This document shows positions 2,120 to 6,666 of a DNA stretch of 64,000 nt, one piece after another. This DNA comes from Thermoflexus sp. (GTDB lineage: Bacteria > Chloroflexota > Anaerolineae > Aggregatilineales > Aggregatilineaceae): NCBI GenBank assembly GCA_020724465.1, contig DYGX01000005.1, forward strand, positions 1 to 64,000. The letters run 5' to 3'. How positions within the stretch are numbered: the first letter of the stretch is position 1; every line of letters begins with the position of its first letter. A program made the position numbers and the translations under genes. Under the pieces are notes generated by a model that saw nothing but the letters and a program-made list of their open reading frames with translations, was not told the DNA's origin and ran no database searches.

Positions 2120-2971
2120 CTATTCCACAGGGCGCGGCGCGTCGTCGCCCAGCGTCAGAACGGCGATCATCTGGTCGTGCACGCGGCCGTTGCTGGCGAC
2201 GATCTGGTGCCCCATCAGGGCCTGTTGCGAGCGCGCCCCGCTGTAATCGGTAACCCGCCCGCCCGCCTCTTCGACGAACAGAATCCCGGCCTGCACATCC
2301 CACGGGTTGGGGCCGGATTCCCAATAGCCCTCATAGCGCCCGGCAGCGACGTAGCACAGGTCGAGCGCCGCCGATCCCACACAGCGCACCGCCTGAGCGC
2401 GACGCAGAAAATGGCCGAACTGCGCCGCGTTGTTGTCCGGGTTGGTCCAGCGATCGTAGGGGAAGCCGGTGACCAGCATCGCCCGGCTGAGCGCGCTTTC
2501 GTCCGTGACGCGCAGAGGCCGCCCGTTGAGCGTGGCGCCGTGCCCGCGAATGCCCTTGAACACCTCGTCGCGCAGCGGGTCGTAGACGACGCCGAGCAGC
2601 GGGTTCAGGTCCGGATCGGACAGCGCCAGGCACACGGAGAAGAACGGCATGCGGTGCGCGAAGTTGACCGTGCCATCGAGCGGATCGACGTACCAGTGAT
2701 ACGGCGTGTGGCTGGCGGGCGTGCCATAGCCGCCGCCCTCTTCCCCGACGATGTGGGTGTCGGGGAACGCGTCGCGCAGCGCCCCGACGATGAAGGCTTC
2801 GGTTTCCTTGTCGGCGGCGGTGACGAGATCGATCACGGTGCTTTTGTGGGCGGCCTCGCGGGCGCGCTCGTAATGCTGAAGCAAGATTGCGCCGGCCTGC
2901 CGCGCGATGCTCTCGGCGATGTCCAGCGTAAGGGCGAGGTTCAGTTCTTCGACCTGGTCTGATGCAGCCAT
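2120..2971 (-). CDS. suhB: Inositol monophosphatase family phosphatase
   Basis: 283 residues of the Mg2+-dependent inositol monophosphatase (SuhB/IMPase) superfamily, hydrolysing inositol-1-phosphate or related sugar phosphates. All metal-site motifs are present: DLVTAADKETE near residue 47, GEEGG near 76, DPLDGTVNFAH near 95 and WDVQAGILFVEEAGG near 225. Length matches the family. TATAAT on the minus strand at 3068-3073 gives a likely promoter with a leader of about 90 nt. Substrate preference cannot be told from sequence; histidinol-phosphatase or fructose-bisphosphatase activity is possible in this superfamily. Confidence 0.9.
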   Translation of the reverse strand: MAASDQVEELNLALTLDIAESIARQAGAILLQHYERAREAAHKSTVIDLVTAADKETEAFIVGALRDAFPDTHIVGEEGGGYGTPASHTPYHWYVDPLDGTVNFAHRMPFFSVCLALSDPDLNPLLGVVYDPLRDEVFKGIRGHGATLNGRPLRVTDESALSRAMLVTGFPYDRWTNPDNNAAQFGHFLRRAQAVRCVGSAALDLCYVAAGRYEGYWESGPNPWDVQAGILFVEEAGGRVTDYSGARSQQALMGHQIVASNGRVHDQMIAVLTLGDDAPRPVE

Positions 2972-4765: not shown

Positions 4766-6013
4766 CTAGCGCGCGAAATGGGCCACGCACTGGATGAAGG
4801 CCGTCTGCGGCAACATGTCGACCGGCTGCACGTCGATCAGGCGGTAACCTTTCTGGGCCAGGCGTTTGGCGTCGCGGGCCAGGGTCGCGGGGTCGGCGCT
4901 GATGTAAACCAGCGCGCGCGGACCCACCGCCGCCAGCGCGTCCAGGGCGCGCCCGTCCACGCCCGACGGCGGCGGATCGAGCACCGCCGCGTCGTACTGC
5001 TCCGCGAGCGCCGGAAGCACGGCCTCGACGCTGCCTTCGATCAGATCGACGTTCTCGAAATCGGCCAGGTTTTCGTCGGCGTCGGTCACGGCGGGCGGAT
5101 AGCTCTCGATGGCGGTGACCAGCGAGGCGCGCTCTGCCAGAAAAGCGGTCAGCGTGCCGACTCCCGCGTACAGATCGAGCACCGTCTCGCTGCCGTTCAG
5201 ATTCAGGCGTTCCAATACCAGATCGATCACGCGCTCGATCTGCGGCAGGTTGGCGTGAAAGAAAGCGCCCGCCGTTACCCGGAAGCGCCGCCCACGCACG
5301 CGATAGACGACATGGCTGGAGCCGATCAGGTTGACCGGCTCGTTGTCGCGGAGCAGAAAGTTGATCGACACGGGGCGATCTACCTCAAGCTCGGGTGCCT
5401 CGTCATCACGCGTGCTCAGAACGATCATCGGCGCACCTTCCGAGCTGGCGTGCAGGCGCACGCGCTCAAGCTCCGGGATCTCGTCCAGCGCCAGCTCCTC
5501 GAACAGCTCCATCAGCTCGGGCCGGATGATGTGACACTCCTCGATCGGGATGAGCGTCTGGCCGTCGGTGCCGGGATAGCACAGTCGCCCGGCGTCGTCG
5601 GTGTAGAAGGTGGTGCTCAGGCGATAGCCCCAGGCTTCCGGGCTGGGCACGGTCGGGTGCACGACGGGATTGCGAAAGCCGCCAACGCGCCGGAGCTGGT
5701 CGATGACGACGTCGCGCTTGAAATCGGGTTGTGCCTCGTACGCGATATGCTGGAAGGCGCACCCACCGCAGCGCCCCGGCCCGAAATGCGGGCAGCGCGG
5801 GCGCACGCGCAGCGGCGACGGTGTGAGTAGCGTCACGCCCTGTGCCAGCGCATAGCGCCCGCGGTCGTCTACGATGCGGGCGATGATCCGCTCGCCGGGG
5901 ATGGCGTACGGCACGAAAACAGGGCGTCCCTGGGCGTGCCCCACCGCGCTGCCCCCGTGCGCCATGGCGTCGAGGGTTAGCTCAAAGGTGTCATCGGAGT
6001 GGCGGCGGGACAT
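4766..6013 (-). CDS. RlmD/TrmA-family RNA uridine methyltransferase homologue without catalytic residues
   Basis: 415 residues. A TRAM domain (about 5-65) is followed by a Cys motif CPHFGPGRCGGC plus a later Cys (IPIEECHII), as in 4Fe-4S members, then a SAM-binding fold with DLYAGVGTLT. In active enzymes the nucleophile lies in an SCNP or SCDP motif and the base is a Glu about 35 residues later. Here these read YISADPATLARD (Ala near 373) and TAFIQCVAHF (Gln near 408), so both catalytic residues appear lost. The DPPR motif is DPPPSG. The ATG at 6013 has AAGGAG six bases upstream and is preferred to a more upstream start. It may bind RNA without methylating U, or act differently. Confidence 0.85.
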   Translation of the reverse strand: MSRRHSDDTFELTLDAMAHGGSAVGHAQGRPVFVPYAIPGERIIARIVDDRGRYALAQGVTLLTPSPLRVRPRCPHFGPGRCGGCAFQHIAYEAQPDFKRDVVIDQLRRVGGFRNPVVHPTVPSPEAWGYRLSTTFYTDDAGRLCYPGTDGQTLIPIEECHIIRPELMELFEELALDEIPELERVRLHASSEGAPMIVLSTRDDEAPELEVDRPVSINFLLRDNEPVNLIGSSHVVYRVRGRRFRVTAGAFFHANLPQIERVIDLVLERLNLNGSETVLDLYAGVGTLTAFLAERASLVTAIESYPPAVTDADENLADFENVDLIEGSVEAVLPALAEQYDAAVLDPPPSGVDGRALDALAAVGPRALVYISADPATLARDAKRLAQKGYRLIDVQPVDMLPQTAFIQCVAHFAR

Positions 6014-6057
6014 GGCGGCTCCTTGAACGCTTGGAAATCGGCGGCGAATCCGGCGCG

Positions 6058-6072
6058 AGTATAGCGTATAAT
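6058..6072. promoter_or_regulatory. Overlapping divergent -10 elements
   Basis: TATAAT on the plus strand (6067-6072) and TATACT on the minus strand (6058-6063) sit side by side in the gap between the leftward RlmD-like gene (ATG 6013) and the rightward membrane protein gene. No consensus -35 is seen for either. Mutual occlusion of the two promoters is possible. Confidence 0.5.
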
Positions 6073-6120
6073 CGGACGCAGCGGCGAACCGGTATGCCGG
6101 CGGGATGGACACGCGACAGG

Positions 6121-6666
6121 ATGCGTATGGCAGAGGACAATCAACTGACCGGCGCGCGGCTTTCGGATCACCCGCATCCGCGCCCGGCCCTGCGCCGGGT
6201 GACGGGCTGGCTGATCGCGGGCGGGCTGGCCGGGATCGCTGTTGGAATTGCGGGCCTGCTGGCGCTGGGGATCGGGTACCGCCTGCCGCTGCTGGCGCTG
6301 GCGGCGGTTTTCCTGGCCGGGCTGGCGCCGCCGCTTCTGCTGCTGAGCGCGCTGCATCCGCGCGTCACCGTCTACGAGCGGGGATTATGGCTGCAGCCGC
6401 TGCTGTGGCGCGGAAGCTGGGTTCCGTGGGACGCGCTGGCGGGGATTCACGACCACACCCTGATCCAGCGCACTCGTCGCACCCGCTGGGAGCGTGAGCG
6501 CGAGGGGCGGCTCGTTAGCGTCGAGCATGGGCTGCCGCCAATCTACGCCGTCGTCGGGCGGATGGCGGGCCTGGGCCGCCGCCGCGCCTTCGGGATCGCC
6601 TCGCACAGCCACTGCGATTATCCCGCGCTGCTGGCCGCCATCCGGCGGCACATGCCGCGCCGCTGA
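6121..6666 (+). CDS. Two-helix membrane protein with a PH-like cytoplasmic tail
   Basis: 181 residues. Two membrane helices (about 25-48 and 52-75) are followed by a soluble domain beginning HPRVTVYERGLW and containing WVPWDALAGIHDHT, the arrangement seen in DUF6585-like proteins with a PH-type fold. Function is unknown. ATGs at 6094, 6121 and 6127 are in frame; 6121 lies downstream of TATAAT at 6067-6072 and close to an AGGA sequence, but 6127 is equally possible. It is transcribed divergently from the RlmD-like gene. Confidence 0.7.
   Translation: MRMAEDNQLTGARLSDHPHPRPALRRVTGWLIAGGLAGIAVGIAGLLALGIGYRLPLLALAAVFLAGLAPPLLLLSALHPRVTVYERGLWLQPLLWRGSWVPWDALAGIHDHTLIQRTRRTRWEREREGRLVSVEHGLPPIYAVVGRMAGLGRRRAFGIASHSHCDYPALLAAIRRHMPRR

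Follow-up and report, generated by a model that had tools for sequence, protein, structure and literature searches.

An RlmD-like protein without its catalytic cysteine in Thermoflexus, and recurrence of this state in the class Anaerolineae

Proteins of the RlmD/RumA type which lack the catalytic cysteine together with other residues of the active site recur in the class Anaerolineae, where they are maintained by purifying selection and keep most of their other conserved motifs. One of them is encoded in the window, the whole stretch of DNA analysed here (64,000 nucleotides, positions 1 to 64,000 of the forward strand of contig DYGX01000005.1 of a Thermoflexus sp., assembly GCA_020724465.1). 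We consider, with a probability of about 0.6, that this protein is a pseudo-methyltransferase derived from a catalytically competent RlmD: a non-catalytic Fe-S protein which, to judge from sequence comparison, would bind rRNA and perhaps act in ribosome assembly.

The gene is a complete reading frame of 415 codons on the minus strand, from an ATG at 6013 to a stop at 4766-4768, whose translation confirms the coordinates 4766-6013 given in an earlier note on this DNA; read on the plus strand, the same interval is in a different frame and contains stops. The protein scores 250.8 bits against the RlmD model TIGR00479 (cut-off 183.55) and 34.2 bits against PF05958 (cut-off 23), and its top sequence match among solved structures is E. 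coli RumA (PDB 1uwv, E 1.2e-37). An AlphaFold model built from seven input sequences has a mean pLDDT of 86.9; Foldseek ranks six RlmCD chains at the top for this predicted structure, followed by RumA 2bh2, with a TM score by query of 0.85 against RlmCD 5zq0. The nearest named relatives are 'Anaerolinea sp. isolate Tomsk_5_66_7' (96%) and 'Anaerolineae bacterium' (72%). The features to which we refer below are the following.

2120-2971, minus strand: gene of the inositol-monophosphatase family (PF00459, 225.6 bits), marker of the ancestral locus in relatives (tblastn to their flanks)
4766-6013, minus strand: RlmD/RumA-like protein of 415 aa without the catalytic Cys (translation, TIGR00479, 1uwv match, AlphaFold, Foldseek)
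4790-4792, minus strand: general-base position, Gln408 (CAG) for Glu (family alignment)
4796-4798, minus strand: Phe406 for His, two residues ahead of the general base (alignment)
4811-4813, minus strand: Leu401 for the Phe of DMFP (alignment)
4895-4897, minus strand: nucleophile position, Ala373 (GCC) for Cys (family alignment)
4967-4969, minus strand: Pro349 for the Arg of DPPR, an Arg invariant in intact copies (alignment)
4970-4978, minus strand: Asp346-Pro347-Pro348, retained; the Asp aligns with RlmCD D381 (alignment)
5105-5107, minus strand: Glu303, retained (alignment), presumably with a role in SAM binding
5156-5176, minus strand: DLYAGVG (280-286), retained (alignment), which we take from family knowledge to be the SAM-binding motif
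5255-5257, minus strand: uracil-contact position, His253 for Gln, aligned with RlmCD Q283 (alignment)
5534-5536, minus strand: Fe-S ligand position Cys160 (alignment; RumA ligands)
5759-5770, minus strand: Fe-S ligand positions Cys82 and Cys85, CGGC (alignment; RumA ligands)
5792-5794, minus strand: Fe-S ligand position Cys74 (alignment; RumA ligands)
6031-6666, plus strand: divergent ORF of 211 aa that matches nothing in Pfam at 1e-3 and adjoins the gene in many relatives

The earlier note had recognised a nucleophile motif reading SADP, a Gln in place of the general base, and a spacing of 35 between the two positions equal to that of E. coli RumA. All of this holds: SADP lies at residues 372-375, and the alignment to 1uwv places the RumA Glu at residue 424, from which counting back 35 gives Cys389, which we take to be the RumA nucleophile. 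The list of two lost residues was nevertheless incomplete, since six conserved residues of the active-site region are replaced (Q253H, R349P, C373A, F401L, H406F and E408Q). The three genomes of the genus (g1) all carry Ala373 where RlmD has the nucleophilic Cys of SCxP, Gln408 for the general-base Glu, and His253 for the Gln that contacts uracil (RlmCD Q283, RumA Q265). Codon 373 is GCC in all three, against TGC or TGT in intact members of the family; these two base changes and the agreement between genomes make sequencing error, which the earlier note had named as a possible refutation, unlikely. A nucleophile moved to another position was rejected, as no new Cys occurs in the genus; at each of the six places where the window protein has Cys, so do 15 or 16 of the 16 family sequences.

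Other features of RlmD are retained. The earlier note had reported the SAM motif and the Fe-S cysteines, and both are present, the latter as C74, C82, C85 and C160, which would correspond by alignment to the RumA ligands Cys81/87/90/161 (PMC5614603). The uracil-contact Asp (RlmCD D381, RumA D363) is found as Asp346 in the three genus members and, like Phe251, also a uracil contact in RlmCD by alignment, is unchanged.

Family alignment, proposed in the earlier note as a check, confines the loss within the family to this one genus: Cys and Glu are missing in 3/3 genomes of the genus and kept in the 13 matching genomes of its other genera. We searched 61 genomes with the window protein, with a match in 58; the gene can be absent, as in two of 36 good relatives. 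Elsewhere in the order a copy without the Cys (hereafter Cys-less) is present in 8/8 matching f2 genomes, 8/8 f8 genomes, two of f3 and one of f4, and six of the eight f8 genomes have an intact copy in addition. In a 63-row tree from which the catalytic columns had been removed, the genus is nested inside its intact family (node 100/99). Four changes of Cys state are needed on this tree, all four forced by starred (well-supported) branches, and a single change suffices in 0% of 200 bootstrap trees. Dropped before this tree and from later counts were L056 (split over two frames), L058, L062, L064 and L065 (short or cut) and L067 and L068 (duplicates of L003 and L005); the Cys is present in L056, L062 and L065, and its position is not reached by L058 and L064. 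The incomplete Cys-less L061 was counted and left out of the trees.

The survey was extended to 150 class genomes at least 90% complete, of which 131 gave a match and 19 gave none at E 1e-20. From the other orders of the class 97 sequences were taken, with the reading frame chosen by profile score, and 20 of them are Cys-less; the class matches left out belong mostly to genera already sampled. Altogether the Cys is missing in 42 of 201 homologues, all 42 in Anaerolineae. A quick tree of 159 rows, in which the incomplete L178 is absent, requires 11 state changes, nine of them forced by starred branches with SH-aLRT as the sole support measure. Counts of changes on a tree cannot by themselves separate loss from gain; we interpret them as losses, since to return to the active state several residues would have to be restored simultaneously. 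Outside the class, the phylum sample (40 matches from 38 genomes, out of 90 matching) has the full set F-Q-D-R-C-H-E in 40/40 sequences.

Several individual sequences deserve mention. L015, L135 and L177 have Arg or Pro for Q253 but the usual Cys, Arg, His and Glu, and are possibly first steps or tolerated variants. L031 and L136 have Ser for Cys and Tyr for His while keeping Gln and Glu, and may represent early stages of loss. In L045 the homologous stretch from G058 covers 733 aa within an open frame of 968, which is either a fusion or a spurious long frame. Among the catalytically complete sequences from outside the class (L181-L220), seven of 40 are missing at least one Fe-S cysteine as aligned here, the reverse of the Cys-less pattern.

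In the alignment of 201 sequences, conservation among the 159 Cys-containing copies reaches 97% or more in 31 columns. All three genomes of the window's genus are changed at the same six columns (253, 349, 373, 401, 406 and 408) and unchanged at the other 25, and these six are also the least kept in the remaining 39 Cys-less copies: C373 in 0/39, F401 in 1/39, Q253 in 3/38, H406 in 6/39, R349 in 7/39 and E408 in 7/39. With C373 set aside, the chance that the two six-column sets coincide is 7e-6, a value which assumes exchangeable columns and ignores the kinship of the rows. The catalytic columns of Cys-less copies are scattered over many residues while most columns of the SAM site, the Fe-S site and the N-terminal and central domains are fixed. 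G284, G286, N315, C160, D399 and P402 are kept in 42/42, the Fe-S set is complete in 38/42 (the incomplete locus L061 being one of the four exceptions), and R69, Q88, H89, Q95, K99 and Y130 of the N-terminal/central domain, conserved when the Cys is present, are kept at 98-100% in its absence as well. Retention outside the genus is intermediate for F251 (11/39), R131 (19/39), D346 (23/39), D280 of the SAM motif (30/39) and G84 beside the Fe-S ligands (27/37), and the partial loss of R131, F251, D280 and G84 points to possible change in some of the binding surfaces as well. Nor is change within the genus confined to catalytic columns: in a looser, order-level set of 97 columns near-invariant in 38 intact copies, L287 is changed in all three genomes and columns 26, 262 and 288 in part of them.

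Cys-less copies are not decaying; they evolve under purifying selection. By a scripted Nei-Gojobori calculation, dN/dS of the window gene is 0.076 against its nearest relative, G001, and 0.22 against G002; comparisons with G002 are higher (0.22-0.24), and intact pairs also reach 0.24 (0.06-0.24 in families f1, f4 and f7). Close Cys-less pairs range from 0.03 to 0.08. Selection may be more relaxed in the mixed f4 pair L019-L031, with a ratio of 0.30, and in L046-L047 of f3, with 0.295. Five g19 genomes carry both copies, with dN/dS of 0.027-0.069 between Cys-less and 0.040-0.103 between intact copies. The Cys-less copy is lower in dN in 10/10 genome pairs and in dN/dS in 6/10; in the remaining four, where the intact copies have dS above 2, near saturation, the ratio is lower in the intact copy. 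The idea of stronger selection on the f8 Cys-less copy was dropped, given a lower dN/dS in just 6/10 pairs, and selection on the two f8 copies is comparably strong. The pattern of TRMT2B of Bovinae, a pseudo-enzyme among m5U methyltransferases, with a lost catalytic residue and the SAM site and the overall sequence conserved, is found here.

The locus adds a further line of evidence. Homologues of both neighbouring genes adjoin intact copies in several family members and also Cys-less copies of f8, the inositol-monophosphatase homologue being found beside L037-L042, L054 and L063; neither neighbour occurs in the flanks (about 2 kb) of the intact f8 copies L049-L053 and L066. The Cys-less copy is therefore the f8 gene at the ancestral locus. 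The intact f8 copies lie on a separate contig, group inside family f7 and lack the ancestral neighbours, which makes horizontal acquisition probable. Selection that maintains the Cys-less copy in genomes which also have an intact one provides the strongest single argument for a separate role of the Cys-less protein. Homologues of the 211-aa ORF flank the RlmD-like gene in many f1, f4, f7 and f8 relatives by tblastn and represent a conserved neighbour.

In the window's own genome (98.99% complete) there is a single PF05958 match at E <=0.001, so that the search for a second, intact paralogue suggested in the earlier note found none; a weak further match to the window protein (C33, 29%) covers residues 262-387 only. 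TrmFO, which is flavin/folate-dependent and not homologous to RlmD, exceeds its cut-off in 52 of 61 relatives, whether their RlmD-like copies are intact or Cys-less, with one full-length match in the window's genome (G000), and among these 61 relatives there is no sign that it or a TrmFO-like RlmFO has taken over 23S m5U formation in the genus. The assemblies of the genus (G000, G001 and G002) gave no 23S match. In G036, an f2 genome with a Cys-less copy only, the U1939 stretch, as we assume it to be numbered, is present with TT at the two free positions.

In the known m5U reaction, the Cys attacks C6 and the Glu removes the C5 proton, according to the accessible text of PMC7237155. RlmCD E443Q was engineered to keep the enzyme inactive for crystals of RNA complexes (PMC5614603, available part), and for this reason we rejected the idea, taken from RlmCD chains in the PDB, that Gln is tolerated as general base. 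The RlmCD variants Q283A and D381A are described in the available text of PMC6235398 as binding RNA without severe loss, with activity reduced to about 8% and 2%, respectively, on a U747 substrate and to about 50% and 4% on a U1939 substrate. From this mechanism and the inactive E443Q we infer that m5U activity has been lost: with Ala, Gln and His in these positions, a protein should be inactive for m5U and may still bind RNA. A limited search of literature available in part found no demonstration of m5U formation by a homologue carrying these residues.

In the scenario that we favour, the protein would be the vertical descendant of an RlmD capable of catalysis. Residues activating the target uracil would have been lost while the SAM fold, the Fe-S-ligand cysteines of the central domain and the N-terminal part were kept, and the ancestor's rRNA site, 23S around U1939 and/or U747, would most likely still be bound and helped to fold or assemble. 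The Fe-S cluster and either SAM or SAH would serve as structural or sensing ligands. Repeated loss in relatives which still keep the protein indicates that it probably holds RNA rather than modifying it. Catalysis-independent roles in tRNA folding have been described for TrmA and TruB (review PMC11301382, accessible part). A pure RNA chaperone would not be expected to retain the SAM motif, and its retention counts against this reading.

That same retention would be explained if the protein methylated a different atom or base and did so without the covalent intermediate. The earlier note had offered an RNA-binding pseudo-enzyme or a different chemistry, and the comparative evidence favours the former. 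A new active site shared by Cys-less clades should appear as a new conserved set, and none is common to them; what most resembles one is Q253R, fixed in 15/15 f2/f8 rows (one clade) as a possible new contact. The invariant SAM-fold residues speak for such an activity, as do D346, P347 and P348, kept in the window's genus and in 15, 14 and 12 of those 15 rows, but D346 is gone in 16 of 39 Cys-less copies outside the genus, where columns 373, 401, 406 and 408 vary widely (entropy 2.85-3.28 bits), and we consider such neofunctionalisation unlikely. Quite improbable, in our estimate, is a complex with another protein in place of RNA, for instance as a SAM/Fe-S sensor. The SAM and Fe-S residues are indeed among the best-kept features, and E. 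coli RumA is reported to sense reactive oxygen in a review available in part, but the near-invariant N-terminal and central residues fit continued, putative contact with RNA.

Little probability attaches to a loss of function under way, in which the modification would be dispensable and the gene an early pseudogene. L031 (FQDCSYE) and L136 (FQDRSYE), each confined to a single lineage, may represent recent losses, the L019-L031 ratio is elevated and the gene is missing in some relatives. Full-length open frames, the low dN/dS of close Cys-less pairs, the Fe-S and SAM residues kept across deep clades and the persistence of a Cys-less copy beside an intact one all disfavour decay. Scarcely any credence is left for m5U still formed at a low rate through another residue or a partner protein: an intact SAM motif and predicted fold speak for it, but the genus has no new cysteine, E443Q inactivates RlmCD, and the loss of Cys went together with that of Gln, Arg, His and Glu.

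Returning to a pseudo-methyltransferase, these observations bear on the old question of why rRNA modification enzymes are conserved when their modifications are often dispensable. Repeated removal of the catalytic part with the rest under selection separates the need for the protein from the need for the methyl group. A wider proposal, tentative and on balance rather doubtful, is that in Anaerolineae an rRNA methyltransferase was turned, some nine times or more independently, into a non-catalytic, Fe-S/SAM-binding checkpoint of ribosome assembly, this binding role being the ancestral reason for keeping RlmD and methylation a removable extra. For annotation, all four Cys-less proteins tried (the window protein, L037, L042 and L048) pass the cut-off of TIGR00479, an NCBIfam equivalog, which would thus name them as active enzymes and imply a modification that these organisms probably lack. 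In open-licence literature, no title or abstract among the matches listed concerns Cys-less RlmD in Chloroflexota or Anaerolineae, and the word cysteine is absent from the available part of PMC4119055, which mentions Chloroflexi and RlmD.

The window protein shares with RlmD/RumA, the 23S m5U1939 methyltransferase (COG2265), the Fe-S cysteines, the SAM motif and the predicted fold, and differs from it in the nucleophile, the general base and four more conserved residues. The predicted fold also resembles that of RlmCD of Streptococcus pneumoniae, an active enzyme with Glu443 and no Fe-S cluster, whereas the window protein has Gln408 and keeps the Fe-S cysteines. TrmFO-like proteins of mollicutes provide a parallel among m5U enzymes, being relatives with both catalytic cysteines replaced (PMC7226160, accessible part), and the same paper mentions a probable rlmD pseudogene in some mycoplasma strains. 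METTL17, a methyltransferase-like assembly factor, needs its [4Fe-4S] cluster to bind the mitoribosome, according to the available part of a review (PMC11452305); it acts on the small mitochondrial subunit and is an analogy. Inactive members of the same superfamily are already known in mammals: in TRMT2B of Bovinae and rat the Cys is altered, while the SAM site and the rest are well conserved, and a chaperone role has been suggested for the bovine protein (accessible text of PMC7237155). TRMT2B is mitochondrial and has Cys replaced by Tyr in Bovinae, whereas in the present case the Cys has disappeared along with Glu, Gln, Arg and His, in several lineages within one bacterial class.
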